A stretch of 64,000 nt of DNA from Neocallimastix lanati (nom. inval.). Taxonomy: Eukaryota > Neocallimastigomycota > Neocallimastigomycetes > Neocallimastigales > Neocallimastigaceae. Made by a program: the position numbers and the translations under genes. Shown here piece after piece: positions 2,445 to 59,767 of this stretch (its first letter is position 1; every line of letters starts with the position of its first letter). Under the pieces are notes generated by a model. The model did not search any database and was not told where the DNA came from. It worked only from the letters and a program-made list of their open reading frames with translations. Location of the stretch: NCBI GenBank assembly GCA_016946835.1, contig JACVTC010000049.1, positions 1,082,501-1,146,500 of the forward strand, given 5' to 3'.

Positions 2445-3103
2445 TGATACGATACCACTATAAAAATAAGATTTAGGTAAGAAATTTAGGTTAGAAATAT
2501 TGTATAAATATTATTGGTTATAATAATTAAAATAATTTATATATAGTTAATTCAAATAATTATTTTTAAAAGCATGGTTAATTCTTTTGTCATAATTAAA
2601 AATAGATAAATTATATTATTAATGATTCTATTATTATGATAATAAATTAATTCATCATTATTATTAATAAGTTTTATTTTATATTTTAAATATTATTTTG
2701 AGAATTATATAGTTTTAGGAATTATATTATAAATATTGATAATTATATTTTATTCAGGAAATATATTTTAAATATTAATAGTTAAATATATTTAATAATG
2801 AAATTGTATTTTTAAATAAAGTTATTAGGAAATTAATAGTTAAAGAGATATGTTTAATAAAAATATAATATTAATTAATTATTTTAACAATTATATAAAA
2901 TTAAGAGAATGTAATAATAAATTATTATGTATGTAAAAATAAAATTATAAAAATAAATAAAGAACAAAATATTATTATAAAACATTATTATTATAAATTA
3001 TTTTCTTATATTTATTAGAATATATTATTGTGTCATAATTCCCTAGAGAAACGACCAAATAAATAAATAACTAGATATGGAATATTTTAAATGTTCTGTA
3101 TCA
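2445..3103 (+). mobile_element. 3' LTR (family A, 659 bp)
   Basis: It begins TGATACG and ends GTATCA, giving 6-bp inverted termini. Its last 97 bp equal window positions 1-97. It is followed by AGAA and then another LTR that starts TGGTACG at 3108. Confidence 0.85.
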
Positions 3104-3107
3104 AGAA

Positions 3108-5534
3108 TGGTACGTTACTCATAGAATAATAGAAAAAAATTGTAAAAAATAGAAAATTGTTAAGATAATAACTGAATTTCAATTCAATTTCAATTTCGAT
3201 AATTCAGTTATTTGAATTTCAATATTAATAAATAATAATAATATAATAATTATTATTAAATTAACTTTGTTAAAATATTTAGGAATTAGTCTAGGCCAAC
3301 TAATTACTAAATATTATTAACATATTGAATTTAATATATATTAAATAATGTAAACACGTGATTGTCATATTAAATTAATTTCTACATATTATATTTTAAT
3401 TATAAATTATAATATTTAGCAATATTTAATTCTTATATTTTATTTATATTAAATATTTATATTATTATCTAACTTTATATTATCAATATCAAACTTATAT
3501 TAATATTATTTACATATTCATATTAATAATTAATATTTTAATAATTAATTATTTTATATAAATACATGTTTAAATTCTTTGATTAATCCTTTGTAGGATT
3601 ATTGTAATTTAAATTATAGTAATAATTATATAAAATAATAATGTAATAAAATATTATTAAGATTAAATAAAATTTATATTTTAGATAAAAACTTAATTAT
3701 AAAATTTACTAATAACAATATGTTTTAAATAAGAATAAAATTTATTTATTAATAAATTACTATAATTTGGCATCTTGACCTAATCGTTAAGACCAAATTA
3801 TCTAAAAACTTTGACAAAAATTATCACGAATACTAGTGGATTTGAGAGTAAAATTCACTATTAGATCAATTGAAGTTTAATTTAGTTATTGACAAAAATT
3901 ATTTTAATTCGATTTTAATTATAAAAATAAATATTAGAAACATTATAGAATTAGAAACCAAAGGGTTTGGACTTATTTATTAAAGATAATTTAATTAATT
4001 TTAACCCTTAAGAGTTTGATAAAAATAACATGAAGAAAAACAACGACATCACGACAAATAATGGAAATAATATATCAATATTCCCGTTAAAATTATATTC
4101 ATTAGAAAGCTACTGACGGGAACTACAACATATGTTAAAATCAACCTTATTGGACAACTAGATAACGAGATATTGGTCTTTAAAGATATTTTAAATATAA
4201 AAAATAATTTAATTATTTAGTTAAGACCCCAAGATTATTAATTAGAAATTTATATTAAATAAATATCTTAACTTGGAAATTATATTATTAATTTTTATTA
4301 TTAATTAAAAAAACAGAATTAGTTATTAGTAATAGTTTTATAACATTTTAAATAAGTTTATAAGTTTTATATATTTTATTATAATATTTTTATTCAATTA
4401 TTTTCTAAAAGATTCTAAGGAATTCTTTATCATTCTAAAGATTTCCGAAAGAGAATTTTTAATTAGTTTTAATATTTTATTTTATTTTATTTTATATTTT
4501 TTCTTAGTATTAAATTAGTTTTAGTATTAAATTGTTTTATGAATAATTATATAGTTATTGTATTAAAAGATTCTTATCAATATTATTTTATTATTATATT
4601 TTATATAGCTTATATACATGTATGAATATGTTAAGATTAGAATGTATTATTTAATTATATTGTTAATTATTATTTTAGTTTAGTATAAAAAGGATTTGAA
4701 ATTCCATATTTTGAATTTTTTGTAAGATTATTAACCTAGTAACTTATAACCTGTTAACATAAAGTTAATGAATTAATTATAACAATAAATAAATCTTTAT
4801 ATTAATCTAGTTAATTTTATTATTAAAATATATATTATGAATAAAGTTCTAATAAAACATAAATCTTATAGATTGAATTCTTAATTATTAAACTCTGTGT
4901 GTATTATTTATTATTTAATTTAATTAAATTGTTATAATTAATAAAAATATCCTGACCTGACCAATTTAACCCAAACTAGGAAAGATTTAGCAAGAATCTA
5001 ATCTACCACTCAATAAGATTTAACTATAATCTTTACCTATACAAAAATTTTTACAAAAATAACAATATTAATATGTGGATTAGTGATAAAGTATATTAAA
5101 TATTTTAATATAATTAAATAATATAATTAAATAATAATTAACTAGCAATAGGAATTGAGAAAACTTAGTATAAAAAGATCAATTATTAAATAATTAGAAA
5201 GGGGAATTCTTAGAGAAAAAGAATTACTCAATAGTTAAAATAAGAGATTTATACTTTACAATTAAGATTAGAAAATAGAGAGAGAAATTTTATAATAAAT
5301 AATAAATATAGAAAATAGATTTTAGAGATAAATACATAAAATTATTAATTTGAAATATAAAAGCAGAGAAAATAATAAAATACTAAAATATTAAATAATA
5401 TTATTATCTTTGTTTAAATAATTTTTTTTATTTGAGTGTTATTTAATTCTAATTATTAGAATATATTATTTTATATTAAGAAAACTTGTTTGTTCCGACC
5501 CTAAAGTGACTTTTTTTTTATAAGTTGTGTATCA
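3108..5534. mobile_element. Solo LTR (family B), split by a nested insertion
   Basis: It starts TGGTACGTTACTC and ends GTATCA at 5529-5534. Its two arms (3108-3157 and 5056-5534) match the reverse complement of the LTR at 23606-30786. Removing the nested unit at 3158-5055 and one copy of its target repeat leaves about 524 bp, close to the 522 bp of the other copy. It has no coding capacity. Confidence 0.75.
3158..5055 (+). mobile_element. Nested LTR-type insertion (family C) inside LTR B
   Basis: It begins TGTTAAGATAATAACTG, ends TTTTTACA, and is flanked by the 5-bp duplication AAAAT (3153-3157 and 5056-5060). It is 1898 bp, longer than a related solo LTR (737 bp at 31758-36835). It contains two promoter-like modules (TATAAATA at 3557 and TATAAAAAG at 4684, each followed 33-35 bp later by TTTGTARGATTATT). 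It may therefore be a small LTR-LTR unit or an LTR with another insertion. No ORF of note. Confidence 0.7.
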
Positions 5535-5538
5535 AAAA

Positions 5539-5588
5539 TTATACGAGACCACTATAAAAATGGTATTTAGGTAGATTCTTTAGGTTAA
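5539..5588 (+). mobile_element. Fragment of a family A-like LTR start
   Basis: The stretch ACCACTATAAAAAT...ATTTAGGTA...TTTAGGTTA closely follows the first 50 bp of LTR A at 2445. It sits four bases (AAAA) after the end of LTR B and is cut at 5589 by the next element. Confidence 0.6.
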
Positions 5589-14604: not shown

Positions 14605-15520
14605 TTATTTTATTATATTCAATCTGTACTTTATATTTATATTCTACTATTTATTTTATTTTATTCAATCTGTACTTTATATTTATATTTTACTATTTAT
14701 TTTATTTTATTCAATCTGTACTTTATATTTATATTCTACTATTTATTTTATTTTATTCAATCTGTACTTTATATTTATATTCTACTATTTATTTTATTTT
14801 ATTCAATCTGTACTTTATATTTATATTCTACTATTTATTTTATTTTATTCAATCTGTACTTTATATTTATATTCTACTATTTATTTTATTTTATTCAATC
14901 TGTACTTTATATTTATATTCTACTATTTATTTTATTTTATTCAATCTGTACTTTATATTTATAATTTATATTCTACTATTTATTTTTTTATTTATTTTAT
15001 TTATTTATTTTATTTTATTTTATTTTATTTTATTTTATTTTATTTTATTTTATTTTATTTTATTTTATTTTATTTTATTTTATTTTATTTTATTTTATTT
15101 TATTTTATTTTATTTTATTTTATTTTATTTTATTTTATTTTATTTTATTTTATTTTATTTTATTCAATCTGTACTTTATATTCATATTCTACTATTTATT
15201 TTATTTTATTTTATTTTATTTTATTTTATTTTTTATTTTATTTTATTTTATTTTATTTTATTTTATTTTATTTTATTCAATCTGTACTTTATATTCATAT
15301 TCTACTATTTATTTTATTTTATTTTATTTTATTCAATCTGTACTTTATATTTAATATTCTACTATTTATTTTATTTTATTTTATTTTATTCAATCTGTAC
15401 TTTATATTTAATATTCTACTATTTATTTTATTTTATTTTATTTTATTTTATTTTATTTTATTTTATTTTATTTTAATTTATTTTATTTTATTTTAATTTA
15501 TTTTATTTTATTTTACTTGT
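14605..15520. repeat. Satellite array, inverted orientation
   Basis: Reverse-complement copies of the unit (ATTCAATCTGTACTTTATAT, then ATTCTACTATTTATTTTATT), with a central run of TTTTA repeats (about 15001-15163). Its 314-aa and 132-aa ORFs are translated repeat and are not genes. With the array at 13652-14300 it forms a large imperfect inverted repeat around about 300 bp. Confidence 0.95.
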
Positions 15521-15681
15521 ATTTACTATTGCATTACTATTGCATTCTTTATTTATTTATTTTTTTTTTTTTACAAATAATTGAAAAACTAATTTTTCAA
15601 AATTAGTATTTAGAATAATATTAGATAATTAATATAATAATTTTAATTATATAATTAAAAAATATTTATAAAAATATAGAA

Positions 15682-16702
15682 ATGGAAAAAAATCTTATTA
15701 TTGATATAAGTGAGTCTAACAAAGGAAAGAAATAAATTATTATTAATAAAAGATATAAATTTAATATTTCATATATAAGAAAAGATAATTCAAAAGTTTA
15801 TGTACAGAAATAAATGTAAATCTTTTATTATTTTAAATGATAAGAAAGAAATCTAAAAATATGATAGTTCACATAATCATCCTGAAAAAAAATACGATGT
15901 ATCTCTATCTATAATGAAACATAAAATTAAAGATACAATTGAAAAAAGTTCAATTGTATAAAAATAAAACCCCTATATAATAAAATTTTTAAAGAAATGA
16001 GATTTATATGTCCAGAATATAATTCAATTAAATCCTAAATATCAAGAAATTTAAATAAAAACTACCATCCAATGTAACAACATTTACTGAAATTCCTAAT
16101 GAATCTAAATATTATAAAACAAAGTGAGGTGAAAATTTTATGATATTCAAAAAATATTAATTTAATAATTTTTCAATCTCCTTTTCAAGTAAAATTATTT
16201 AGGGTATATAATGATGATATATTTGTTGATGGTTCATTTTTTATTGCCCTTAAATTTAGTTATCAAATATTTATTATAAGAACTTACACTAAAGAATTAG
16301 ATAGTTTTTACACTACTTCTTTTGCAACATTACAAAATAAAGAACAAGAAACATATAAAATATTTAAAAAATTAAAAAAAAAAATGCTAATACATGTAAC
16401 AATAATATTTTAATTGCAGAATCAATAATTATTTAAATAATTTATTTCCAACAATACCATCTTATTATGAATTAATAGATAAATTAAATAAACTTGAACA
16501 TTTACCATATTATGATTATCAAAGAAAAATAAGAGGAATTTGGAAAATAAAAAAAAGACCAATAAATAAAGCTAATAAAATCAGTGTCTTAATTGAACGC
16601 TACAAAAATATTGAAACCAAGTTAATTGATACTAAATGTGATAGAAATAATACTATTAATTTGTGGTTTGATTGTTTAACTAATTTAAATAATATAATAT
16701 AA
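15682..16702 (+). pseudogene. MULE transposase pseudogene
   Basis: An ATG at 15682 opens MEKNLIIDISESNKGKK, which is then broken by stops and frameshifts. It lines up throughout with the better copy at 34126-35544. The DGSFFIALKFSYQ block keeps the first catalytic Asp. About 390 bp holding the second Asp are deleted near 16423, where the equivalents of 34875 and 35256 are joined. The C-terminal part (ELIDKLNKLEHLPYYDYQRK to the end) is readable again. Confidence 0.8.
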
Positions 16703-17145
16703 ATATTATTTTATAATAAATAATTAAAAAATGAAGAATAACCAAACGAAATAATCAGAATTCTGTCATTCAAAAATTTAATTTATAAAGCTTATTAAAT
16801 TTATACAGTTTAAATAAATATTCAAATACGTCTCTATAATTAATAATTTTATCATTATAATTATTATTTTTTTAATAACATTTAAATAAAAGAATTATTA
16901 TTAATAATATTTATATTTTTAATAACATTTATATTTTTATATAATTTTTTTATTAATAACATTTAAATAAAAGAATTAAAATCATAAAGTCTAACCATTA
17001 TATGATTTATTTAATTATTCACTTAATAATTAATTTAAAATTTGAAATAGCAAATAATACAATAAAATAATATTATGTAGCATAAAATATCTATAGCCAC
17101 AAATTTTTATATATCACGTGAAAATTGGCGTAATGCAACCTCCCC
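16703..17145. mobile_element. 3' subterminal region and right end of MULE 1
   Basis: ATTATTATTAATAACATTTATATTTTTAATAACATTT-type repeats, then TATATATCACGTGAAAATTGGCG and the terminal AACCTCCCC. It corresponds to 35545-36310 of MULE 2. Confidence 0.75.
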
Positions 17146-25084: not shown

Positions 25085-25195
25085 AATAATAGTGGATTTA
25101 TATATGTGTTTTTAAATTTTAAAAAGTGTGTGTTTTAAAGTTCTAAATAGTGTATTTTAGAGTGAAATAAATTTTAATAAAATTAAATAAATAAA

Positions 25196-37406: not shown

Positions 37407-37414
37407 CAATTTAC

Positions 37415-40348: not shown

Positions 40349-40354
40349 CAAAAC

Positions 40355-42142: not shown

Positions 42143-42146
42143 AAAC

Positions 42147-43064: not shown

Positions 43065-43087
43065 AGATGCCCTCGCTAAGACTCAAG

Positions 43088-46000
43088 CTATACAGAAGCT
43101 GAGTTAAACTTGATTATGTTCTTTAAGTGAACATTGCGGTTCATTTGTATACCCGACTTAGGATCGGCCAATGTTACTGTGTTGAATTGTTTCTTAATTA
43201 CTTGGAGTGGTCCAACAAAATATGGTTCTAACTTGGTTCGAGTAAAATTCCTTACTAAGACTAAATCACCAGGTTTTATTCTTTTAGCCTGATTCATACT
43301 ATTCTTTTGTTCTCTACGAGTAGCCCAGTATTTATTTGCATTTTTGATATTGGCCGCAGCTTCCATAGTCCATAAATAGTGATTGACAAATTTTTCCAAT
43401 AGGATTTCATCCGAAGATTTGTTTACACTTTTAGTTGGTCTAGCAGCTATGTCAAAGGGTTGTTGGTCTTCTCGTCCATAAACAAGTTCAAAGCTAGAGT
43501 GATTAGTAACCGAATTTTTGGTTGTACGAAGAGCCCATAAAGCGGAAGGTAAGACTTCGTCCCATTCTTTTTGTTTATTTCCTAAAAGTCTAAGTAGTTT
43601 TCCAATTTCTTTATTTCGGTTTTCTGTAAGACCGTTCGTTTCTGGATGATAAGTTGTACTGAACCTCACATACACATCATAAAGATCTAGGAACATTTTT
43701 GTCATATCCGAATTGAATTGAACACCATTATCAGTTGTAATTGTTTGAGGCACACCATGACGAGAGAATACATTAATTAAAAATTTTATTACATCTTTTG
43801 AAGTTACATTTTCAGTTGGCTCGGCCTCTACCCATTTAGTAAAATAGTCCACGATTACCAAAATATATTTATTATTGTTTGATGTTTTCTCTAGAGGTCC
43901 AATTATATCTAAACCTAAATGTGTGAAAGGTCCTTCAACTTCTGTAGGAATATCTTCTGTTGGTTCTGGGTATGCTTTGGGTCTATTTAATTGACATTGT
44001 TCGCATTTTGAAATAATTCTTTTAATATCATTTACCATGTTGTTCCAATAGTAACTTTTTCGTAATCGTTGGTAAGTTTTATTATATCCTTCATGTCCTA
44101 TGCCATGAGCTTCAAGAATGAGTTTGACCTTTTCATTAGTATCAGTGATTAATTTCCTATAAGTATTTCCATCTATAAAGTATTCAATTCCATCAATTGT
44201 TGTAAATTTTTCTTCCATAAATTCTTTTACAACTTTAGATAATAAAGATTCATCAACTTTTGAAGAGAGTTTTGTTGCCAATATTTTCTTATCATTTATA
44301 CTTTTCATTCGAGAAAGAGCATCAGCTACAACATTCTTTTTGCCAGGTTCATATCGAATTTCTACACCTAAAAGATTTACAGCTAAACACCATCTGGTTT
44401 GTCGAGCACTTGTTGGTTCTTTCTTGTTGAATAATCCTACTAAGGGTTTATGGTCAGTATAGATTATTGTTTTAATGGGATTTCCCATAATATAAGGTTT
44501 AAATTTTGTTAAGCAATAAAATAGAGCAGTTCCTTCTAGATCTGTAATTCTGTAATTTCTTTCATGTTTAGTTAATGTTCTACTTATATAGTGTACAGGA
44601 TGCTCTTTTTTCATTTCATCATCTTTTTGTAATAGGACACCACCAATGCCATCATACGATGCATCCGTTCGAATAATAAATTCTTTCTCGAAACATGGAA
44701 ATTTTAAAATTGGTGCATTCATTAATTTTTCTTTAAGTATATTAAAGCTATCATTTTACTCTTTATTCCATCGGAATTCAACATCTTTTCTTAACAATTT
44801 GCAAAGAGGAGCTGTTATTCGAGCATATTTATCGATGAAGTCTCGATAATATCCTATCGCCCCTAGGAAAGACCGTAATTCATGGAGGTTTGAAGGAGGT
44901 TTCCAATTTTTAATTGATTCAATCTTGCTATCAAGAGGGCTCAGACCTTGTGCAGATACTTTGTGACTGAGGTGACTGAGGACTTCAACTTCTGTTTGCA
45001 TAAACGAACATTTTTCAATATTGATTTTAAGTTTGTGTTCTTTGAAAACAGCGAGTACTTTAGCAATATGTTCGAAGTGTTCTTCTAAAGATTTTGAGTA
45101 TATAAGGATATCGTCAATGAAATTGAAAACAAAATCACCAATGAAAGGAAAGAGAATTTTGTTCATCTCACGTTGGAAAGTTGCTGGAGCGTTAGTAAGT
45201 CTGAAAGGCATGACTTTGAATTGATAATTTCCGAATTTTGTGGTAAAACTGGTAACTTCAACGCTTTCTTCATCCATAAGTATTTGATGATATCCGGAGT
45301 AAAGGTCCATTGTAGTAAATATTATAGCACCATCTAAACTATCGAATATTTCATCAATATTTGGAAGAGAATATGAATCTTTTATAGTAGCATCATTGAC
45401 TTTTCTATAGTCAACACACATTCTCCATTTACCATTTGGTTTAGGAACAAGAACAACAGGCGAAGACCATTCTGAATATGATGGTTCAATAAGTCTTTTA
45501 TTTATTAATTTAGTAAGTTCTTCTTTAAGAATATCTGTTTTTAGTTTTGAGATTCTATAAAATTTTTGTTTAATTGGCCTAGCACCAGGTTTAAGGTGAA
45601 TTTTATGTGGAGATAAGTTCGAAGGTGTTAATTCTTCAGAAGAGGTCGCAATTATAACTATATTATCTTCTAAAAGTTTAATTATTTGATCTCGATACTT
45701 TTTATTAAGAGTATTGATAAATTTTTCGTTATGAATAAATTCTCGAGGAGGAAGACCTTCCATTTTCTTAAGTTCTTTCTTAATAGATTCATTAGAAATA
45801 GCTTTTACAAAACAAACTAATTTTTCTTCATTTTCATATTGATTGTTTATAGGAGCAATTTCTTCAACCGATCCATTATCATTGAATTGGCAAAGACTAT
45901 AAAGAATAGGATGAATAAACAATTTATGATCTATTTGAGTTTTCAAGTTAATAAGAATATCAAAGAAAGGATCTTCTTTATCTATAACTCTACATGTAGC

Positions 46001-47209
46001 AACCATATGAAAATTATTAATTTGTACAGGAATATTGATTAAATAGTCTTCCGAATAATCATCATTAATAGTTGCTAGTCGGATTCTTCCACGACTGATT
46101 CCAATAGGCTCATATACAGAAGGTAACTTTCTAAGGAATTGATTAGTAATAATATTTAAATTACTACAAGAATCAATCAATGCTTTTCCTTTGACTCCTT
46201 CAACAGTAACGTCGACCATGGCTATATCATCTTCTTTGGGTTCTTTGTTTTTACTTTTATAAGTGTGATCAAGATTATTAACTATAGTAGTAGTAGCACA
46301 AATGTTGTCAACGGCACCGGCTATCTTAATAGAATCTTTTTCTAACTTTAAACCTTTTGCAACTTAAGATCTGATTTTTGGTGATACTTCAAATAATTCT
46401 CCAAAGGTAATATTACATTTAGTAGTATTTAAGTCTTTAATAACATTGTAAGGTAGATGATCAGCTATCATTTGGATCTTTCTTGGAACTCTAGGAATTT
46501 TGTTTCCAGGAAGTTTATTTACTTTTAGTTTCTCATTAATGAGTTTATTTAATGTATTATTTGGAATACTATTTTCATCATTATTAGAAATAATATGATC
46601 AGTTTCATCAATATCAACAATTTCAATGGGCGAGGTGGAAGTAGATGCAAGTTCTGTATCACTAACCTCTTTTCCTTTTTCTTTTTCTTTTCTGCGATTA
46701 GATAAATCTATATCAGTAATTTCCATAGGTGATTGAGAAGTACTAGCACGTTCTTTATCACGAATTTCTTTTTCTTTTTGTTTTTCGAGATTGATTAAGG
46801 GCTGTGACATTATCGAAGGATGTATCTGACTTGATGTTTGTTTTGGAGTTGGATTAACTTTCAATTCATTTTCTTTCTTCTTTCGCAAAGCTGGAGTAAC
46901 AATTGGTCGAGGATTATCTCTAAGACTTTTGTGAATTTTCTTTTCTTGATTACCTTTATGATCTTTACTAATGTTATCACGCTTTCTTTTAAAAGCAGCA
47001 ACCAAGTAGTCGTTTTCATCTTGAATTAAGTCAATATCTTCTAAATCATTGATGTCTTCTTCTTCGATTTCATCCTCAGATAATTCATAACTTTTTTTTT
47101 GATCTTCTATTTCTTCATGGAAGTAGTCATTAGCTGAAGATTGTTGATATTTAACGGAAGCTATTTTATTGACAATGGGAGTGCTTCTTCTCCCTTTTAG
47201 TGATTTAAA
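43088..47209 (-). pseudogene. Ty3-2 Pol (protease-RT-RNase H-integrase) with two nonsense codons
   Basis: One minus-strand frame, entered by a -1 shift at 47203-47209, is cut by TAA at 46364-46366 and at 44756-44758; both lie in frame and replace residues coded in Ty3-3. In order: a charged linker (SVKYQQSS to RSTP), protease KALIDSCSNLNII, RT (CVDYRKVNDATIKDSYSLP, TMDLYSGYHQILM, FNFIDDILIYS) and RNase H (FIIRTDASYDGIGG, YTDHKPLVG). Then integrase (GHEGYNKTYQRLRKSYYW with CEQCQ; HLGLDIIGPL; TTDNGVQF; ETNGLTENRN). The protease has Cys where Gly is usual after Asp-Ser. No chromodomain. Very close relative of Ty3-3. Confidence 0.9.
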
Positions 47210-48147
47210 CGTTTGTTTTCGAAGTATTCCTGACGATTCTTTTTGATAATAGCATTAAGTTTTGGACATTCGGTTTGAAAATGACCTTCTTCACTACAAA
47301 AGAAACAGGTACTAACAGTTAAACCTTTTATTCTTTTAGTTAAGTTATCAACAGTTGAATCTTTTTCCTTTATTTTTGAATCATTAAATACTTTTCCTTT
47401 AGATTGATTGTTATTAAAATTTGATGATTTATAAGAATTGTTGAAATTTGTTCTAAAATTTTCGTTTATTTCTTGGTTAAAGGTAGGCATCAATCTATCT
47501 ACTTTTTCAGCTATTGCAAATGCTTTCTTTAAAGAAATGTCATCCTTGAGTGAAACCTTTTTCCAGGCTTCTTTATTATTTTTCAAAGAATCAGCATAAT
47601 CCAATACACTAATTCTTCTTTTCCTCTTTTTATCGAGTTTTAAATAGAGTGATCGATAGCGAATGTTAAAATCTTTAACTTTTTCATACTTTTTAATTTT
47701 TAAGGAGCGAAGTTCCTTAAGCAAGACGTTTTGATCTTCTTTTTTTCCATAAAATGTTTCTAACTCATTAATAATTTCATCAAGACTTGGATAATGATTA
47801 TCTTCTTCATCATCGCTATCATCTTCATCATCGTCATCATCATCATCGTCATCGTCATCACTAAAGTTTTTGCCATATTCCATATTTTGAATTACTTCTC
47901 TTGGTTCACCAGTCGAAGTTAAGATACATGCCGTAAAAATAGTTTCTGGATCATCTACATGCTGATATCTGATCCAAAATTTTAAATCTGAAGCCCAAGA
48001 TCTAATATCGAGATGTTCTTTGCTTAGTTTTTCTATGTCTTTTAATTCTTTCTTGAGTTCTCTAAAGCTAATAGCGTGATTTTTGTTTATAACAGTTGGA
48101 ATTGGAACTGAAGGATTTGAAGTTGATGGAGAAGATCCTGAACTCAT
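47197..48147 (-). CDS. Ty3-2 Gag
   Basis: I take the start at 48147 (MSSGSSPSTSNPSVPIP), because the 62 codons before it are hydrophobic leader and minisatellite sequence. The 316-aa product has a helical core (FRELKKELKDIEKLSKEHLD, SWASDLKFWIRY), a run of Asp/Glu (DDDDDDDDDDDEDD), then Gag-like ELETFYGKKEDQNVLLKELR and KVKDFNIRYRSLYLKLDKK. A CCHC knuckle CFFCSEEGHFQTEC (CX2CX4HX4C) is near the C-terminus. It ends at a stop six bases after the slippery site, so most ribosomes would make Gag only. Confidence 0.85.
   Translation of the reverse strand: MSSGSSPSTSNPSVPIPTVINKNHAISFRELKKELKDIEKLSKEHLDIRSWASDLKFWIRYQHVDDPETIFTACILTSTGEPREVIQNMEYGKNFSDDDDDDDDDDDEDDSDDEEDNHYPSLDEIINELETFYGKKEDQNVLLKELRSLKIKKYEKVKDFNIRYRSLYLKLDKKRKRRISVLDYADSLKNNKEAWKKVSLKDDISLKKAFAIAEKVDRLMPTFNQEINENFRTNFNNSYKSSNFNNNQSKGKVFNDSKIKEKDSTVDNLTKRIKGLTVSTCFFCSEEGHFQTECPKLNAIIKKNRQEYFENKRLNH
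47203..47209 (-). promoter_or_regulatory. -1 ribosomal frameshift heptamer between gag and pol
   Basis: Minus-strand T TTA AAT in the gag frame (codons CGT TTA AAT CAC TAA). A slip back of one base puts TTT AAA TCA in the pol frame, which is open from there. The same heptamer in the same context occurs in Ty3-3 at 63840-63846. Confidence 0.75.
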
Positions 48148-48289
48148 TTTAACTAATATTGAAAGTAACAGAATAGAATTGAGCAAAATGAATGTTTGAA
48201 AATAATTAATAAATAATATTGACTGAAGTAATATCAGATTTTTCTTGAAGTTAATAATTCTAGTATAAACTAAAGTCCAATGACAACCA

Positions 48290-48560
48290 AATATACTATT
48301 GAAGATATAAACTAGTGTTACACTGACCCCCAAATATATCTGAAAAGAATAATATATAGATATAAACTAGTGTAGTGATAACCCCTAAATATATCGGAAT
48401 AATAAACAGTATAGATATAAACTAGTGTTACACTGACCCCCAAATATATCTGAAAAGAATAATATATAGATATAAACTAGTGTAGTGATAACCCCTAAAT
48501 ATATCGGAATAATAAATAATATAGATATAAACTAGTGCTTTGTCTTGCCCCTAAATATAT
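48290..48560. repeat. Minisatellite of alternating 58-bp units in the Ty3-2 leader
   Basis: Five units share TATAGATATAAACTAGTG and CCCC.AAATATATC. The middle alternates: GTTACACTGACCCCC (units 1 and 3) and GTAGTGATAACCCCT (units 2 and 4), with a variant GCTTTGTCTTGCCCC in unit 5. This gives a higher-order period of about 117 bp. Confidence 0.9.
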
Positions 48561-49248
48561 CTTGATAATTGTATTGTTCTTTACTTTCAAAAAAAAATTT
48601 TAATGTAATGGAATCTTCGAATTAATGGTGTTGTTGTGTGCTTTTGTTATTATCAATTGGCAATGTGGTAGGAAACTTTTTCTGAGTTGATCGTAAGACG
48701 ACTTTGATATAACTCAATTAAAATTTAAAAATAAAAATATTATTTGTAAACAACTAAAAAAAATAAAATATGATTTATTAGAACAAAAAAAAAATTTTAT
48801 GGAATAATATACATATAAAAAGAGCATTTCCTGGAATTTTCCATATCCAGTACTAAAAAGTAGGTATGTAGTGCTTGAATTACCACAGCTTGCCTATTAC
48901 GGTGTCATGTAGTAATCAAACCAGACGCTTCTGCTTTCAAATAAACAGAACGACCAGAGCTCAAGAATGACCTTTCAATTCTTGAGATAAATTAATCCGG
49001 AAACTACCTATTGTTGGAATTTTAGTACTAGGTACTAGGTATGCTTCTAAACCGTACTAAATCCCTTTTTATATGTTTCCAATAAATTTTATTTTATTAA
49101 AGCTTCACCGGTAATTGCTTACCTATCACTTTAATATTAAAAAAATTTAACAAAAAAAAAAATTGTTTTATTAGAAATATTATTATCCTATTATTGTTTA
49201 CTCTATATTTACGATTATTAACTTCCCCGATATCTCCACCACTTTTTA
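48561..49248 (-). other. Untranslated leader of Ty3-2 with primer-binding site
   Basis: No ORF. Minus-strand TGGTGGAGATATCGGGG (about 49226-49242) lies seven bases after the 5' LTR end and fits a tRNA 3' end. The rest has some GC-richer stretches but no recognisable gene. Confidence 0.7.
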
Positions 49249-50173
49249 TGTTGAGGTTCGGGACAGAATAATAATAAATATAGAAATAAACACTAAAATA
49301 AAAAAAATTAAAAATTAAAATATATCTTTTTTTTAAAATATTTTATTTATTTATTTAATAAAAATTATTCAATTAAAAACTAAAAAATAAATTAATTTCT
49401 TTAATAAGATTATATTTTTTTTTTTCAGATTATTTTTCTAAAATACAATTTTCTCATCTATTTATATTTTTTTTTATCGTTAGAAATGGTCAAGCCATTT
49501 CTTTAGAATATCTTAGAGTTACATGTTTGAATTGTATTTAAATTATAAATTCATAATCTATTCTATTATAATAAATAATTATTACATATTATTAAATTCT
49601 AAACTATTTATTATTAATTGTAGTAATAATATATTTTAAAAATAATTTTATTACTTTTACAAAACTATTAGTAATAGAGTATTATTTAATTTTATACTAT
49701 TTTTAAATAAAAGTATTTTAGATTATTATCTATTATTAATCTTATTATAAATAGGGTGTATTTTGGAAGGAAGTATTACTAATTTTAATGACAAGGATCA
49801 GGGATTTAAGTAAAATATTTTTAAATCATTATTAATTATATTAATTTTTATTAATAATAAATAATTTGTATTAGTAATATTTGTAAAATAAAATTTTCTT
49901 TAATAATAAAATATTGATAGAATAAATCATATTAATGAAACTAGATATTGATAATAATATTGATATTAATAATATAGTATTAATTTTAATAATAAAGTAT
50001 TGATATTAATAAAGAATTTATATTAATAATAATAAATTTAATATTAGTAATAATTTGGCAGTAATAGAACATAAGAAAGTTCCCCAAGTAAGGAAATAAA
50101 TAATTTAATTTTAGTGGTTAAGTTATTTTTATGAAAAATAATAAAATTAACATTATTTATTCATACCTTAACA
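49249..50173 (-). mobile_element. 5' LTR of Ty3-2
   Basis: TGTTGAGGTTCGGGACAG to CCTTAACA on +, matching 42147-43064 apart from a 7-bp indel and scattered changes. Confidence 0.9.
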
Positions 50174-50177
50174 ACAA

Positions 50178-51282
50178 TGATTTATACCTAATATTCTTAA
50201 TCTACAAAAATTAAATTTTGTAGAAGTGAATAAAAGGATAAATACTGAATAAAATTGATTTAAGAAATTTAAAAAAATAAATATGTTTTATTATTAAACA
50301 CAAAAATGTTTTATTAAAAAAAATTACTTTTATTTTAATATTAATCTTTATTTATTTAATAATTAATTTTGTTTAAATTAATAAAATAATTGTTAAAACT
50401 AATAAAATAATAAAATGAAATATTTATTATTTATATTAATTTATTTTAAATTTTAATAATAAAATTGATTATTAATAACTAATAAAATATATAATAATTT
50501 ATCAAAAATAATTAATAATCATAAAAATTGATTATTAAAAACTAATAAATATCTATAATAATTTATTAAATAATTAATAATCATAAAAAATTGATTATTA
50601 AAACTAATAAAATATTTATAATAATTTATTAACTAATTAATAATAAAGAATAATTTATAAGAAATATTTACATGTTTTTATATTTTTCTTTGATTTTAAA
50701 CTATTTACATTAAAAATAATAAAATTAATAAAAGAGAAATAAAGAATAATTTATTATTAAATTAAACAATATTTACAATTAAAATGTTGATAAAGATGAG
50801 TTTTAAAATGTTATTTTAATTACAATTTGTTTATAAAAGTTGAGTTATAAAATAAATAAAATAATCATTATTTTAAATAAAAGTAACTTAAAAAATTATT
50901 TAACTATCTAATTTTAATTTTGCGATGTTTATAAGTTTGTTTATTTGTTATTTATAATTTATTAAATTTGTTTATTATTTTGTTTATTTGTTGTTTTAGA
51001 AAAATATTATTTATTAATTTATTTTAGTTTTTAATTAAAATTATTAATGATTAATTAATTTATTATTATTTTATTTTAATTATCTTTATTTAATTAATTT
51101 TTCTTAAATATGGATTTATTTTTTTTTAGAATGGATTAATTTTTGGGTTAAGCTAGAAAACTTTAACATGAATTTGTTTTTTATTATTTATTTTAATTTA
51201 ATAATTTTGTTATTTATCAACATGATACGATATATTTTAAACATTCGTATTTATAATAGTTTTGGGCGCTACACTGGGGAAT
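50178..51282. other. Non-coding internal remnant of another LTR element
   Basis: It starts TGATTTATACC four bases after the Ty3-2 LTR and ends with a purine tract (CACTGGGGAAT, about 51272-51282) before LTR G. No ORF. It may be the internal part of a stripped, non-autonomous element. Confidence 0.45.
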
Positions 51283-51824
51283 TGTACTAAATTATATATT
51301 CTAATAATAATATTAATTATTTTATTTAATTATTTAAAATTTTTATTTTAGGATATTTGTTTTGTAATATTTTATTTTTATTTTATTTTATTTTATTTTA
51401 TTTTATTTTATTTTATTTTATTTTATTTTTATCATATTAATTAACTATTAATAATTATAATTTAATTATAATATTCTATAATTAATTACTTAAACAACTA
51501 ATTTTATTAAAACTAATAACTAAACTACTATCTTAACTAATTAAAACATTTTTCTTATATTAAATCAACTATTACTAATTAACATATATCAATAATTTTT
51601 TAACATTAAATCAACTATTACTAATTAACATATATCAATAATTTTTTTTTAACAAAAACATTTTTTTTTTTTTTATAATATTTTTATATATTTTTTTTTA
51701 TAATTATTATCTCTATATTAAATCATAATTGTTATATTTTATATAAACATTAATATAAAAGTTTATATTATAATAATTAAATTTTATACTATAATAATAT
51801 TATTTTATATGATTTATAAATAAT

Positions 51825-52597
51825 TATAAAGTTTTGATTTAAAAAATAGATTATAAGTCAAAAATTATAATAACACTAAATAACACAAAAATGTTTTATA
51901 AACAAATAAGTTTTGTTATATTTAGATTTTAAAATAATCTTTATTAATTATTAGTGTTATTAACAATAAATCGTTAATAACAATTACATCGATTAAAATA
52001 CATGAAATTTGGTTAACTATTTATATTTTTATCTTATTACATTTAGAATATATAATTCCTATTGAATTATATTATCTAACTATTTATTTAAAAACAATAC
52101 TAACCTAAACTAATAATAAATAATTAACTATTACTAAATAAAGAGAATTATAATTAATAACTAAAATAAATATAATCAATTCTAATTGAGTTCATTTATT
52201 ATTTATTTATTATTTAAATATTATTAGTAAATTTATTATATATTTTCTATTTTAAAATAATATAAAAGTTGTCATAATTATTTAATATGATTTTAGCATA
52301 AAATGCCGCAAGTTTCAACATGACTAATTGCATAGTTTCATGTTGTTAATTTATCTTGTAAAAAACCTTAACTCTTATTATTTAAATTAAATTACATAAA
52401 AAGAAATGATTTTCAATTACTAGTTTCACAAGAGAAATTTTTAATTTATTAATATGATTGGGAAGAAGTCGAAGTTTTGTTTAAAATTATTTGCAATAAT
52501 TTTATACACGTGATTTTTAATAGATTTATTTCAATTTTACTTAAATTTATGATTAAATTTAATTAAAATTTATAAAGATATTAATAATATCTTTACA
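51825..52597 (-). mobile_element. 3' LTR of Ty3-4
   Basis: TATAAAG to CTTTACA on +. Minus-strand TATAAATAGTTAACC is a likely TATA box. Confidence 0.95.
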
Positions 52598-52634
52598 ATC
52601 TCGCCCCTTAAGTCGAGCTCCTGCGAGATTAACT
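52598..52634 (-). promoter_or_regulatory. Polypurine tract within a short hairpin
   Basis: Minus-strand AAGGGGCGAGAT abuts the 3' LTR. ATCTCGC and GCGAGAT at the two ends of this stretch can pair, bringing the tract into a stem. Confidence 0.7.
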
Positions 52635-55411
52635 TTAAGAAGGAAGATCAATTACAAAAGGTTGATATTTATGTCTAACATAGTACTCGTTTGCATCATC
52701 AGGTGGTTGACAGAATTCGTTGTTAACATTCGAAGATTTGTTCTTCTTTTCTTTTCTGTAATATTCTTGTATTAATTGTCTATCAAGAATTTGATCTTCA
52801 TCAATCCAAGTATTTTCACTAAAATCGCATCCTTTCCATTTAATCAAGTAACGATTCTTATTGTTAAAGGTTTTCATTTTAATTATTCTTTCAGGAGTTC
52901 TATCAATTGTATCCGTATTAAGATTAATATTTCTTCTACGAGTATTTCTTCTGTTTGAAAATTCATTTTCATGGTAAGGTTCGAGAAGTGAAACATGAAA
53001 TACAGGGTGACAACGCATATTATTAGGAAGTTTAAGTTCGTACGCTAAGTCACTAACTTTTCTTATTATTTCAAAAGGTCCTATTAGTTGATCAGATAAT
53101 TTTCTATTTTTCTTTGTTGTATTACCCTTTAAAAGATAAACTTTATTTCCTACTTTAAAATCTGGAGAATCCATTCTTTTCAGATCTGCATATTTCTTAT
53201 AAGTCTTTTTTGCTTGCTTTAAGTTTTCTTTTAAAAATTTAATGTTTTCATTAATATTTAATATTCTTTTCTCAGCTCTATGCGGATTCTCATTTGAAGG
53301 AATTTCAGGATTAAATTTCGGATTAAAACCATAATTTGCAAAAAATGGTGATTGATTTATTGATTGTTGTAAAGTATTGTTATAAGAAAATTCTGCAAAA
53401 GGTAATAAATCAAACCAATTATTTTGTTTTTCGTTAATGAAACAACGAAGATATTGTTCCAATATCGAGTTCACCCTCTCCGTTTGACCATCAGTCTGCG
53501 GGTGATTAGCAGTAGAAAAAGAATGCTTAATATTTAAAAGAGAGCAAAGACGATTCCAAAAATCAGAGGTAAATTGAGAACCACGATCAGAAATAATAGA
53601 ATCGGGGAAACCATGAAGTTTAAAAATATTAGCAATGAAAGAATCAGCAGCAATAGAAGCAGTAGGAAGACATCTAAATGGTATAAAATGAGCCATTTTA
53701 GTTAAGCGATCCACAACAACCATTATAGTGGTCATATCTTTGGATTTCGGAAGTTCAACAATAAAATCCATAGAGATAGCAGACCAGGCTCTATTTGGTG
53801 TAGAAAGTGGAGAAAGTAAACCATATGGCTTATGTCTTGGGATTTTGGATTTTGAACAAATTTCACAAGATTTAATAAACATTTTAACATCTTTTTGTAA
53901 TTTAGGCCACCAGAAATTACGAGAAATAAGTTCAATAGTTTTATTAATTCCAAAATGACCAGCAGAAATAGAGTCATGATGGAGTTCTAAAACTCTTATT
54001 CTAATTTTATTGGGAACATAAATTAAATTTTCAAAAAGTAAATAACCATTTTTGTCAAGAGAAAATTTATCGATTTTACTAAAAGGGGGATCTTTTGATT
54101 TATCATTTTTAAGAAATTCAGTTATTTTGCAATAGAATTCATCATTAGCTAGAGAATCATGAATAGAGGAGATTAAAGAATCATTCTTAAAACTACATGA
54201 ATTAATAACGCATGAAATAGGACGAACACTAGCAAATAAATGATCACTACGTCTTGATAAAATATCTGGTTTACCTGACTTTTTACCAGCTCTGTAAATT
54301 AGTTTAAAATCAAATCTAGATAAGAATTCATACCAACGAATTTGGCGTTGGGAAAGAAGTTCAGGTTTTCGAGGGAAAGTTAAATTCTTATGATCAGTAT
54401 AAATAATAAACTGATGGCGAGCTCCTTCTAAGTAATGTCTCCATCCTTCCAATGCAACTTTAATAGCAAGAAGTTCTTTGTCATAGATAGGGTAATTTCT
54501 TTGGGATTTAGTTAAGCTAGTAGAAATAAAAGCAATTGGATGCAAATGCCCATCAAATTCCTGAGAAAGAATTGCACCAACAGCAAAATTACTAGCATCA
54601 GTTTCAACAATGAATTGTTTGTTGCTATCAGGATGTTTCAAAATAGGAGCAGTAGTAAATAATTCTTTTAAAGTATCAAACGCTTTTTGTTGTTCAGAAC
54701 TCCAATTAAAAGGAACATTTTTTCTAGTTAATTTGTGGAGAGGATTTGCAATTTTCGCAAAGTCTTTAATAAAAATTCTGTAATAATTACAAAGTCCAAT
54801 AAACGATTGAATTTCTTTAACGTTTGTTGGAACAGGCCAATCTAAAATTGCTTTAACTTTTTCTTTATCCATTTTAATTCCATCTCTTGATAAAACATAA
54901 CCAATAAAGGTAGTTTCAGTTACATCAAATTCACACTTTTCTAATTTAACAACTAAATGATTCTCTAACAATTTTCTTAAAACTTTCTTAACATGTACAT
55001 GATGTTCTTCTAAAGTATTAGAATAAATTAAAATGTCATCAATGTAAGAGATTACAAAATCATCTAAGTAATCACTGAGAACATCATTTATAAAATGTTG
55101 GAATGTAGCAGGGGCATTCTTAAGCCCAAAAGGCATAACGAGATATTCAAAGTGCCCGTATCTTGTACGAAAGGCAGTTTTGTACTCGTCACCTTCTTTA
55201 ATTCTTACTAAGTTATAAGCAGATTTTAAATCTAACTTAGTAAAATATTTAGCACCTTTAACTCTATCCAACAATTCACTAATTAAAGGAAGTGGATAAG
55301 AGTTACGGATGGTCATTTCGTTCAATTTTCTATAATCAATAACTAGTCTATAAGTACCATCCTTTTTTCTAACAAATAAAATAGGTGCACCAGCAGGAGA
55401 AGAAGATTTCC
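52635..55411 (-). CDS. Ty3-4 Pol: RT, RNase H, integrase, chromodomain (downstream of a frameshift)
   Basis: The open frame reads from about 55411 (RKSSSPAGAPILFVRKKDG) though its first ATG is 55325, so it is really the continuation of the upstream ORF. RT has KLDLKSAYNLVRI, PFGLKNAPATFQ and YIDD (D96-D97 counted from 55325). RNase H has FIVETDASNFAVGAILS and YTDHKNL. Integrase has HHCC (HHDSISAGHFG...CEIC) and D520, D580, E616 with 35 residues between the last two. The tail GPFEIIRKV...HPVFHVSLLEPY leads to a chromodomain at about 808-850 (PERIIKMKTF...RYLIKWKGCDFSENTW). Chromodomains direct integration to marked chromatin in fungal elements. Intact apart from the single shift. Confidence 0.93.
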
Positions 55412-57459
55412 TAATAAAACCCTTTTTTTAAATTCTCTTCTAAATATTTCTTTAATTCTTCTCTCTCCGTTTCAGTTAAAGGGTACAACGGACCATAAAA
55501 TAGACTACAATTATCTTTTAATTTAATTTCACAATCATAATTACGATGCGGAGGTAACACATTACAATTATTTTCATTAAACACTTCTTTAAACATCAAA
55601 TAGATTTCAGGTACTTCGACCTTTTCATCATCTTTATTTAAATTATTATTTTCATTATTACATTTTTCAATTACATTTAATTTCTTACATTTACTTGATT
55701 CACAAATTTTCTTTAAGATCTTTAAACTATTTTTACTAGTTTTACTATCACAATTCATAACAATAATATCATCACTATCACTAAAATTATCGCTATCACT
55801 AATGCTATCACTAAAATTATCTAACATAAAAGTATCATTAATATCACTATCGCTATCACTATTAATAAATTCAGTACAAGTTCTAATACGAGTTCGGCGG
55901 CCACGAATAGAAATTTCTTCTTCAGAATCAGATTCGGAATCGGAGTCAAAGAAAGATTTTCTTTTTCTTGAGTCTTCAATAATTTTATTTTCTTCCAAGT
56001 CGGTAGCAGATTCTTTTCCTTTGTTCTTTTTCTTGTTCTTGATCTTGTTCTTTCTTTTTCTTTTACCGTTATTACAGTGTCTAGCGCAAAATCCTGAGCC
56101 AAAGGAGATCTTCTTTGCGTCGTGGTAATTATAAGGCGAATGCTTCTCAATCCAAGGTAGGCCTAAAATAATATCAACATCAGGAATTCTGAGTACATAC
56201 AATTGAATGGTTTCTAAGTGATTTTTTAAACGTAAAATGCACTTCTCCGTTTCCTTTTTAACTGTTGATATTCCGTAACCAAGACCAGTAACACGGAATG
56301 GTTCTTCAATTTGTTGGGTTTTGATTCCAAAAGCCTTCGCAAATTCTGGGTGAATAAAGTTAAGATCTGATCCAGAATCAATCAAAACTCTTGCTTTTAC
56401 TTCTTCTGTATCGTTTGTTTTAATATAGAAATCAATGATATTACTTTTCTTTGTCAAAAGTGAGTTTTGTTCTTCCACGATTTTTCTAACTTTGACAATA
56501 TCTTCTTGGCTGTTGATTCTTCTAATTCTTCTTAAACTACTTGAGGGTGTGGTAGCGGTGTTTTCTTGTTTACTGATAATCTTGACTCCGGCAGGTTTCT
56601 TCTTATTTGGACAGTTAAAATAGCGATGACCTGGTTTTTTACAATAATAGCACAATCCTTTCCTTCTTTCTTCATCTCTTGAATTCGAGTTTTCTTGATA
56701 TAATTTCTGGTTAGAAGGGAAGTAACTTGTATTCGTTTGTCCTCTCTTAATTCTGTATAAATCTATTTCCATTGGGTCACTAGTAGACGCATGATTATTA
56801 TTATTTATTTCCTTACGATGGTAATAATTATGATAGAAAAATTCATTTATTTCATGTCTCTTAGTTAAGCTTTCGATACTAAGGACATCAGTGAAAAGTC
56901 TTCTTAAGTTGTTGGGATTTGGATTTACCACTGCAAGGTGCTCCCTCATCTTGTAGTGAAGTCCTTTTACAAACATATAAATCTTAGCAGAATCGTTAAA
57001 ATCTGAATGTCTGCTGATTTTATTAAATTCATTTATATACTCACTAACATGACCAAATTTATGTTGTCGGATGCTGCATAATTTACCGTTTGCGACAACT
57101 GTGCTCATGTCCTGCTCTCCAAATTGATTTCTTAATTCTTGAATAAAATCTTCATAAACATTGAGCAGGGGATCATTATTTCTTCGCAAGTTTGAGGCCC
57201 ATATCAAGGGATCACCGACAAGATAAGAAATTATAAATCTGACCTTTGTATGGTCGTTATTGAAACCTTGTGGATTGGCTTCCATAGCTATTTCAGCTCT
57301 TGTAAGGAAGCCATCAAAGTCCTTCTTGATTCCAGAAAATAGCGGTGGTTCGTTAACAATCTTTTGATTGTTACGGGGCAGAACTTGATGATTCTCTTGA
57401 TTCATTTCTTGCAGGTTAAGGTCTTCGAATCTTCTTATTAGGTTGTTAAATCCCTCCAA
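55411..57459 (-). CDS. Ty3-4 Gag-protease
   Basis: 682 aa from ATG 57459. The Gag core has FLTRAEIAMEANP, KVRFIISYLVGDPLIWASNL and IYMFVKGLHYKMREHL; the knuckle CYYCKKPGHRYFNC is C270-C283. The protease has ARVLIDSGSDLNFIHPEF with D361-S-G and ILGLPWIEKH. A Ser/Asp-rich low-complexity stretch (about 490-570) follows, then the RT N-terminus YGPLYPLTETEREELKKYLE. It ends prematurely at LKKGFY, where relatives read GFIR. An extra T in GGGTTTTATTAGG (about 55405-55411) explains this. Gag, protease and Pol were therefore probably one frame. Confidence 0.9.
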   Translation of the reverse strand: MEGFNNLIRRFEDLNLQEMNQENHQVLPRNNQKIVNEPPLFSGIKKDFDGFLTRAEIAMEANPQGFNNDHTKVRFIISYLVGDPLIWASNLRRNNDPLLNVYEDFIQELRNQFGEQDMSTVVANGKLCSIRQHKFGHVSEYINEFNKISRHSDFNDSAKIYMFVKGLHYKMREHLAVVNPNPNNLRRLFTDVLSIESLTKRHEINEFFYHNYYHRKEINNNNHASTSDPMEIDLYRIKRGQTNTSYFPSNQKLYQENSNSRDEERRKGLCYYCKKPGHRYFNCPNKKKPAGVKIISKQENTATTPSSSLRRIRRINSQEDIVKVRKIVEEQNSLLTKKSNIIDFYIKTNDTEEVKARVLIDSGSDLNFIHPEFAKAFGIKTQQIEEPFRVTGLGYGISTVKKETEKCILRLKNHLETIQLYVLRIPDVDIILGLPWIEKHSPYNYHDAKKISFGSGFCARHCNNGKRKRKNKIKNKKKNKGKESATDLEENKIIEDSRKRKSFFDSDSESDSEEEISIRGRRTRIRTCTEFINSDSDSDINDTFMLDNFSDSISDSDNFSDSDDIIVMNCDSKTSKNSLKILKKICESSKCKKLNVIEKCNNENNNLNKDDEKVEVPEIYLMFKEVFNENNCNVLPPHRNYDCEIKLKDNCSLFYGPLYPLTETEREELKKYLEENLKKGFY

Positions 57460-57837
57460 TTTGATTATTTTAAATTGACTTAAATTTTTGCAATTTCTTT
57501 AACAAAAATATCAAACAAATAAATATTTCAAACTATAACGTTTTTTCATCTAGTCGATCTAGCTCTATCCTTTGAAGCGGTGCTGTCGAGTAAACGTAAC
57601 GTTATAAATTAAAATATTAAAGGTTTATGGTTTTTCGAATCTTGTTCTAAGACGTGTAATTGTAATTTCGGTAGCAATATTATAGAGCTGGTGGCAATAT
57701 TCTGAAACTGGTAGCAATAATCTAAAACTGGTAAAAAAATATTTTGAATCAAGCCACACACAAGCCACTGTTAACGTATCACGTGTTATAATCTTGACTT
57801 ATAACGTATTTTATTGAGAGAAAAAGGTAATTGTTAT
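57460..57837 (-). other. Leader of Ty3-4
   Basis: No ORF. Three imperfect copies of CTGGTAGCAATA.TCTGAAA lie at about 57688-57733. No TGG-type primer site adjoins the 5' LTR; the first minus-strand bases are ATAACAATTACC. Confidence 0.6.
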
Positions 57838-58610
57838 TATAAAGTTTTGATTTAAAAAATAGATTATAAGTCAAAAATTATAATAACACTAAATAACACA
57901 AAAATGTTTTATAAACAAATAAGTTTTGTTATATTTAGATTTTAAAATAATCTTTATTAATTATTAGTGTTATTAACAATAAATCGTTAATAACAATTAC
58001 ATCGATTAAAATACATGAAATTTGGTTAACTATTTATATTTTTATCTTATTACATTTAGAATATATAATTCCTATTGAATTATATTATCTAACTATTTAT
58101 TTAAAAACAATACTAACCTAAACTAATAATAAATAATTAACTATTACTAAATAAAGAGAATTATAATTAATAACTAAAATAAATATAATCAATTCTAATT
58201 GAGTTCATTTATTATTTATTTATTATTTAAATATTATTAGTAAATTTATTATATATTTTCTATTTTAAAATAATATAAAAGTTGTCATAATTATTTAATA
58301 TGATTTTAGCATAAAATGCCGCAAGTTTCAACATGACTAATTGCATAGTTTCATGTTGTTAATTTATCTTGTAAAAAACCTTAACTCTTATTATTTAAAT
58401 TAAATTACATAAAAAGAAATGATTTTCAATTACTAGTTTCACAAGAGAAATTTTTAATTTATTAATATGATTGGGAAGAAGTCGAAGTTTTGTTTAAAAT
58501 TATTTGCAATAATTTTATACACGTGATTTTTAATAGATTTATTTCAATTTTACTTAAATTTATGATTAAATTTAATTAAAATTTATAAAGATATTAATAA
58601 TATCTTTACA
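57838..58610 (-). mobile_element. 5' LTR of Ty3-4
   Basis: Same length and sequence as 51825-52597 as far as I could compare. Confidence 0.95.
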
Positions 58611-58745
58611 ATAATATAATTCATCATTTTTATATAATTAATTTTAATTTTATAATAATATATATTTTACAAACTTTATATAATTAATATAATTTAATAA
58701 TAATTTTAAAATATCATTATTTTTCTTTTCATCTTGTATCAAACA

Positions 58746-59767
58746 TGGTAGACTCGGGGTTGACACTTAGATATTTAAAATCAAGCATGGGGGGACGGGT
58801 ATTACCCTGCTTTGATTTTAAATAAAAAAAAAAAAAAAATAATTCTTTATTAAAAATTATTTATTTTTTTTATTAATATAAAAGTTTTTTATTTAAAGTA
58901 CACATATTTAATTTTTAAGAAATTGTTACAATATTTATATTTTTTTATAAATTTAAAGTATAATTAATTGTTTATAATTTAAGTAATTTTATAGAATTAT
59001 TGAATTAATTTTATATCAATAATTCATTTTTGTTTTAATTTTTATAAATATAATAATATAATATTCAAATATAATTTAATTAAAAATAATTATAAAATAA
59101 ATATATAGAAAATAGTTTTTACTATTTTCTTTAATATTTTTAAGTTAAATAAATTGTTTTTAAAGATTAATATAATAAATTTAATAATCTTTAATTATTT
59201 TAAATAATACTTGTAATTATTTTCAAAATAAAATAAAATTTTTATAATATTTAATTAATAAATTTGATAATATTTAAATAATAATTTTTATAATAAGTAA
59301 TAATTTTTAATAATAATTTTTAATAATAAATTTAATTAATAATCTTAATAATTTTATAATAATATTTAATAGTTATAATAAATAAATTTTTATAATAATA
59401 TTTAATAATTTTAATAATTTTATAATATTAATAATTTATAATAATTTTTAGAATAATATTTAATTAATAATTTTAATAATTTTATAATAATTTTTATAAT
59501 AATATTTAATTAATAGTTTTAATAATTTAGTATCTTAAAAGTATAATTTTAATATTTACAATTGTATTTTAATATATACATATATTTAATAATATAACAA
59601 TAAAGTGATTAATTAAAATTTATTTACATTATTTACAAATTAAAATTAATTTATATCAAAATAAATTAAATTTACAATGAGGTTTAGGTTATGAAGAATA
59701 TAGGAAAGTACAATTTAGTAAAGAATTATTAATAATAAAATAAAGGTTATTAATTCATTCTTTACCA
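58746..59767 (-). mobile_element. 3' LTR of Ty3-3 (family H)
   Basis: TGGTAGACTCGGGG to TTTACCA on +, 1022 bp. Minus-strand GAGGGGGCATCA (59768-59779) is the polypurine tract. It is the uninterrupted counterpart of 30791-36886. Confidence 0.9.

Follow-up and report, generated by a model that had tools for sequence, protein, structure and literature searches.

Ty3 of Saccharomyces inserts 2–3 bp upstream of the start site with a 5-bp target-site duplication (TSD), and the chromodomain of its integrase contacts TFIIIB (PMC8632968, excerpt). DGLT-A, a Ty3/gypsy element of Dictyostelium, has an integrase described in the excerpt of PMC5006619 as lacking a C-terminal extension or chromodomain, and the same excerpt places its insertions a mean of 15 bp (13–33) upstream of transfer RNA (tRNA) genes. 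Tj1 of Schizosaccharomyces japonicus lies 5–11 bp upstream of the mature tRNA, in one orientation and with a 5-bp TSD (PMC4600332, excerpt), and further Ty3-like cases are tabulated in a review (PMC5911963, excerpt). Here we analyse a 64,000-nt stretch of the genome of Neocallimastix lanati (contig JACVTC010000049.1, positions 1,082,501 to 1,146,500; hereafter the window), in which long terminal repeats (LTRs) of different retrotransposon families follow one another with four-base spacers. We consider it very probable that mainly Ty3/gypsy elements, namely families A and C and their relatives, insert at the start regions of genes transcribed by RNA polymerase III (Pol III), and that reuse of one site stacks them.

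The tandem run from position 23602 to the right window edge is one chain of nine units, which we denote E, C1, U, I, II, A, K, M and C2. With its spacers it reads TTAA-E-TTAA-C1-AAAC-U-AAAC-I-AAAC-II-AAAC-A-ACAA-K-ACA-M-AACA-C2. A, C1, C2, I and II have the same polarity, as U probably does. All nine LTR–4 nt–LTR junctions that an earlier note had listed from the window sequence are present as written, and copies elsewhere place the LTR boundaries at the same bases: homologues of the 40–43 kb stretch break off near 41171, 42142 and 42147, and the end of LTR I (41169) precedes CAAT, TGAG, AAAA, AACA, TAAA or TTAC at other loci, followed by differing sequence. Two further spacers lie at 51220–51222 (ACA, 3 nt) and 23602–23605 (TTAA). 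The start at 50178, which the earlier note had rated weak, belongs to a real LTR, K, whose start recurs in loci L021 and L074 and whose end stands upstream of tRNA-Arg in L085. The start at 5539, described there as degenerate, is indeed a mutated LTR start, TT, and matches the reversed end of a known LTR family.

Elements A and C encode the Pfam domains RVT_1, RT_RNaseH, H2C2 and rve, in the Ty3/gypsy pol order of reverse transcriptase, RNase H and integrase, and are 78% identical over RNase H plus integrase. The closest PDB match of the A integrase is Ty3 (7q5b, E 6.4e-41). No Chromo domain match was found in the integrase frames of A and C, which end soon after the C-terminal domain; chromovirus B, also in the window, has one. 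The elements work like DGLT-A and Ty3, a likeness drawn from features and not from a tree. With DGLT-A they share Ty3/gypsy membership, an integrase without chromodomain and a similar distance upstream of tRNA genes (PMC5006619, excerpt); with Ty3 they share Pol III start-site targeting, in addition to the PDB match. They differ from Ty3 in their 4-bp TSD and in that no chromodomain was found, and from Tj1 in that the TSD is 4 bp in family A rather than 5 bp and that A or II points against the tRNA gene in four loci, whereas Tj1 points with it (PMC4600332, excerpt). What sets them apart from DGLT-A is that tRNA-Arg genes here are directly preceded by LTRs I, K and M, with which A, II and C form chains through 4-nt spacers. 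Nested plant LTR elements offer a further parallel, in that LTR elements are inserted into LTR elements, but in 12 plant genomes nesting frequency was lowest in LTRs and the integrase domain (PMC6911290, excerpt); because plant LTRs are among the least-used nesting places, the stacking pattern is not a general one. Among the titles and abstract openings listed by our searches of the open-access literature, none described LTRs of several families chained at tRNA genes with spacers as long as a TSD.

The spacing is a property of particular families across the genome, which is AT-rich and was searched as 199 Mb in 762 contigs. The pattern used for family A, TATCA followed by 0–30 free bases and the family A LTR start (which the near relative II also fits), returned 65 matches, with a spacing of 3 nt in 11, 4 nt in 38, 5 nt in 5, 6 nt in 3 and 19–29 nt in 8, and none at 0–2 or 7–18 nt. 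Three of these sites were counted twice because each contains two TATCA. The reversed-pattern control gave no match, and family A-type starts, inner LTR copies included, number 232 genome-wide. For family C, which has 411 starts in total, the 100 matches listed of 115 comprise 7 at 0–2 nt, 18 at 3 nt, 57 at 4 nt, 5 at 5 nt, 1 at 6 nt and 12 at 8 nt or more. The control copia family D, with 85 starts (about 12 of which may be chance; the reversed pattern gives 12), had one match only, at 28 nt, and no peak. Chromovirus B likewise had no peak, with one match at 4 nt among 17 (a raw count of matches). Thus the genome-wide 4-nt peak between different families, which the earlier note had set beforehand as a check, appears in this pattern search as a sharp peak in A and C but not in the copia and chromovirus families.

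The same elements' LTR ends stand at a set distance from tRNA genes. A sample independent of LTRs was drawn from an Rfam search with 63 tRNA hits, 20 of which, all tRNA-Arg, were retrieved. In half of these (10/20) the tRNA-Arg gene is the second in a tRNA pair with a 14–16-nt linker; all ten unpaired genes have an LTR end 11–21 nt upstream, and nine of these ten ends have homologues elsewhere with different letters after the end. Loci L087/L088 and L090/L091 look like duplicates, so that eight of the ten are distinct. Because each of the ten unpaired tRNA-Arg genes in this sample carries an LTR at its start site, saturation is suggested. Three of the LTRs, K (in L085), M (in L086) and I (in L090), are also units of the window chain. 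An LTR-like end also lies 13–18 nt upstream of each of the tRNA-Val, -Glu, -Cys and -Met genes in four loci chosen for family A. The start of A or II is on the tRNA strand in all four loci with a tRNA gene, and from this polarity the Pol III gene of the window chain is expected on the right.

As separate observations on the tRNA genes, the paired tRNA-Arg loci (L075–L078, L080–L082, L089, L092 and L093) have a preceding tRNA whose anticodon is GTT by eye (tRNA-Asn), with no LTR between the two genes in any of these 10 of the 20 loci. Furthermore, 34 of the 63 top tRNA hits fall within about 230 kb of a single contig (C555:170732-399007), with nearly all scores equal and some at a period near 540 nt; they make up an extensive array of the same tRNA gene, which is tRNA-Arg in those copies that were read.

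A second kind of flank became apparent from TAACG before family C starts. Among 60 matches, 9 are LTR ends, 2 adjoin an LTR directly and 49 lie in 16-mers such as TGTAACGAAATCTTCA, TGTAACGAATCGTAGA and TGTAACGAAACTCATA. The 16-mers belong to a repeat that we call G, and 48 of the 49 are 8–11 nt from the C start, or 55 matches with the LTR ends included. In eight retrieved loci with C beside a 16-mer, the DNA to the left of the 16-mer differs. C lies inside G with its tetramer repeated on the far side in four of the eight (TTCA in L067, TAGA in L070, CATA in L072 and TTCA in L074), and the left flank of the split copy is the G start, with no LTR end. The sequence after C in L072 runs into a tRNA-like A box and B box, and LTR I precedes similar tRNA-like boxes in L010 and L021; the box sequences in L010 are TGGCATAGTGG and GGGTTCGA, with similar ones in L072 and L021. 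Uninterrupted, the G unit reads TGTAACGAAACT-CATA-19 nt-A box in 47 copies, 44 of them of equal length. A single fixed repeat accounts for 31 of the 58 matches to TATCA before the G-type A box, and in the other 27 an LTR end stands 22–27 nt before GGTTCAATGG. G starts recur in direct orientation 5.4 or 6.7 kb apart (C15, C43, C744 and C99), which suggests a long element; given this same-strand spacing, and judged from the ends, G is probably an LTR.

In L010, L021 and L072 the tRNA-like A and B boxes of G stand about 35 nt from its start and are accompanied by a TATA-like box. The 31 matches set apart above form a near-fixed string, TATCAATGCATGGAAGA..GGTTCAATGGTA, on many contigs, and represent another repeat with a tRNA-like box. 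A tRNA-like A-box and B-box sequence within the LTR is also a feature of Helenus / TRIMp3, for which the excerpt of PMC10886601 names, among fungi, Pucciniales and some Agaricomycetes. However, those are short, non-autonomous terminal-repeat retrotransposons in miniature (TRIMs), and the distances between G copies are long for a TRIM. The same distances and direct orientation led us to drop an identity of G as a short interspersed nuclear element (SINE). We also considered a host factor like Sap1 that would recognise TGTAACGAA, as in the case of Tf1 (PMC5371812, excerpt), but dropped it when TGTAACGAA turned out to be the start of the G unit. Interpreting the TGTAACGAA 16-mers as coding sequence was unproductive.

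These flanks bear on the alternative that the integrase itself recognises LTR termini, with their shared TG..TA(T/C/A)CA ends, and inserts at the boundary between LTR and flank, so that each junction recreates the target. Many families are joined at the junctions, and another LTR terminates close to many of the A ends: in a set of 53 A and II outer ends, unselected for their neighbours, a CA terminates exactly 4 nt off in 21, and LTR-like ends were counted at 3 nt in 8, at 4 nt in 18, at 5 nt in 5 and at 6 nt in 6. The loci of this sample were chosen by LTR similarity, so that those with several similar LTRs may rank higher, and one internal row was removed by hand from 54. However, LTR ends of the same families stand at a set distance before tRNA genes and tRNA-like A boxes, the G LTR split by C offers a G start and no LTR end as the left flank, and neighbours of this kind are not seen in the genome's copia and chromovirus families. 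A preference of the integrase for LTR termini, one of three causes put forward in the earlier note, is therefore not needed, and we regard it as unlikely. This model, with its self-regenerating CA-NNNN-TG target, was set aside, the non-LTR flanks being G LTR starts, A boxes and tRNA genes.

The spacer itself is a duplicated target. Both outer ends are in view in 18 family A copies: 12 of these have identical flanking 4-mers, 6 have flanking 4-mers that differ at one base, and matching 5-mer flanks were found in none. The four-base spacer is thus the TSD, 4 bp long, in family A. Tetramers recur along chains: AAAC occurs four times in the window and ATTG three times in L027, AACA is found at LTR II and again before tRNA-Cys in L024, and AAAA flanks one side of A and precedes tRNA-Met in L026. 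An error of assembly, or the segmental duplication of a single layout that arose by chance, might be invoked for those junctions that are identical in form on two or more contigs, perhaps as alternative haplotypes, but the 38 family A 4-nt junctions carry 21 different tetramers, lie on many contigs and join different LTR families, which makes this explanation very improbable. If complementary DNAs (cDNAs) were linked by their ends prior to integration, as in the junctions of 2-LTR circles, a constant short spacer between LTRs of different families would be accounted for. We give this explanation almost no credence, and it is ruled out for the 18 family A copies, since these have a copy of the spacer on either side of the inserted LTR; in addition, the same tetramer precedes the tRNA gene in L024 and L026. 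Repeated use of one 4-bp target fits best of the three causes that had been proposed, although what appears to fix the site, a Pol III promoter (a tRNA gene or a tRNA-like LTR), had not been considered.

The features of the window, with positions counted from its first base, are as follows.

2445–3103, + strand: LTR F, a 3' LTR with internal DNA on its left; homologous copies begin at 2445; LTR end GTATCA
3104–3107: spacer AGAA between LTR F and LTR E', read in the sequence
3108–5534, − strand: LTR E', the reverse of LTR E, with other DNA nested within; 5092–5542 matches 24048–23598 at 94%
5535–5538: spacer AAAA, read in the sequence; the next LTR begins at 5539 with the mutated TT
23602–23605: TTAA, left flank of LTR E and left end of the large chain
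23606–30786: LTR E, TSD TTAA/TTAA, split by copia element D
24018–30671: copia element D inside LTR E, TSD ATATT/ATATT
30787–30790: spacer TTAA
30791–36886, − strand: solo LTR C1, split by a MULE-type insertion at about 31760–36834; 30781–31759 matches 58736–59723 at 95%
36887–36890: spacer AAAC
36891–40350: unit U, start TGGTACG, end TTACACA; right end recurs in L011 and L012
40351–40354: spacer AAAC
40355–41169, − strand: solo LTR I, with homologues; end 15 nt upstream of tRNA-Arg in L090 and L091
41170–41173: spacer AAAC
41174–42142, − strand: solo LTR II, terminal type as in A; homologues stop at about 42142
42143–42146: spacer AAAC
42147–50173, − strand: full Ty3/gypsy element A, with pol and gag on the − strand and no chromodomain match
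42147–43064 and 49249–50173: LTRs of element A, 98.7% identical
50174–50177: spacer ACAA
50178–51219: LTR K; end 15 nt upstream of tRNA-Arg in L085
51220–51222: spacer ACA, 3 nt (AACA with the final A of K included)
51223–58741: LTR M, split by chromovirus B; end 16 nt upstream of tRNA-Arg in L086
51825–58610: chromovirus B inside LTR M, TSD ATAAT/ATAAT, LTRs identical
58742–58745: spacer AACA
58746–64000, − strand: Ty3/gypsy element C2, LTR 58746–59766, pol 59794–63849; continues beyond the window

LTR F is the left member of a smaller chain, of polarity opposite to that of the large one. Paired C starts lie 7.0–7.9 kb apart, from which the end of C2 would be expected near window coordinate 67,500. 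Copia D and chromovirus B are later, nested insertions with TSDs of their own; its identical LTRs and 5-bp TSD mark chromovirus B as a recent insertion. Elsewhere in the window, stretches 15447–17147 and 33900–36312 are related, the second containing a MULE transposase domain, and long 10-nt and 46-nt tandem arrays (13.6–15.4 kb and 32.1–33.6 kb) lie near them.

The 4-bp TSD in A, the repeated tetramers, the set distance to tRNA genes or tRNA-like boxes and the family specificity are observed, and we propose the following mechanism. The integrase of A, C and their relatives would insert at the start region of Pol III genes, in a target tetramer about 20 nt upstream of the A box, which would leave the LTR end 11–21 nt before the mature tRNA, and the insertion would copy the 4-bp target as a TSD. 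Because the internal promoter would set the insertion point, a later element would reuse that tetramer, which by then separates the first LTR from the gene. Every such cycle would contribute one LTR and one tetramer copy, giving LTR-NNNN-LTR-NNNN-tRNA, with the tetramer repeated within a chain and differing between chains. The LTR of G, in which tRNA-like A and B boxes stand at a comparable distance, would act as a second landing site. Integration may be tethered through a Pol III factor such as TFIIIB, and chains would grow on the tRNA side.

Several observations weigh against Pol III start-site targeting as the source of the chains. The tetramers of the window vary (TTAA, AAAC, ACAA and AACA) and switch three times along the chain, at C1, A and K, so that these three units are without matching flanks; for them the earlier remark that unlike tetramers beside one LTR are not plain duplications holds. 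Searches of the window returned neither a tRNA gene nor an Rfam RNA, and the chain's own promoter is therefore not seen. Recombination between LTRs of neighbouring chains is the likely cause of the switches and would also delete tRNA genes, which could explain the one missing here. The sample drawn independently of LTRs covers one tRNA isotype (20 of 63 hits), and within it the upstream LTR end of L094 has no homologue elsewhere. The upstream LTR ends in L024 and L026 show weak homology only, and no LTR accompanies the tRNA-Gly gene that follows tRNA-Cys by 11 nt in L024. For G, the tetramers flanking C do not match in one of the eight loci (L073), the far flank of C is outside the view in three (L068, L069 and L071), and the 16-mers were traced as far as the A box in part only. 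Finally, some A or II copies are off the usual junctions, namely in L033 inside LTR C, in L023 within the end of LTR I and in L016 in an A-like LTR start; such insertions are a minority. By eye, those in L033 and L023 are about 50 bp and 7 bp from an end of the other LTR, and one has the palindromic TSD GTAC.

The Pol III start-site targeting proposed here is new in detail in its 4-bp TSD, in the absence of a chromodomain, in the joining of several families at one site in long chains and in the use of a tRNA-like LTR as a second landing site. More tentatively, the tRNA-mimicking LTR promoter of G might be a landing pad for several competing tRNA-targeting retrotransposons; LTR chains would then extend themselves at these decoys as well as at tRNA genes, which the decoys may spare. 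Each LTR–4 nt–LTR step probably records a single insertion at a single Pol III promoter, and the chains could therefore give relative insertion histories for whole families. The finding suggests that Pol III targeting can go with a 4-bp TSD and without a chromodomain, and that retrotransposons can land on a tRNA-like promoter inside another retrotransposon.

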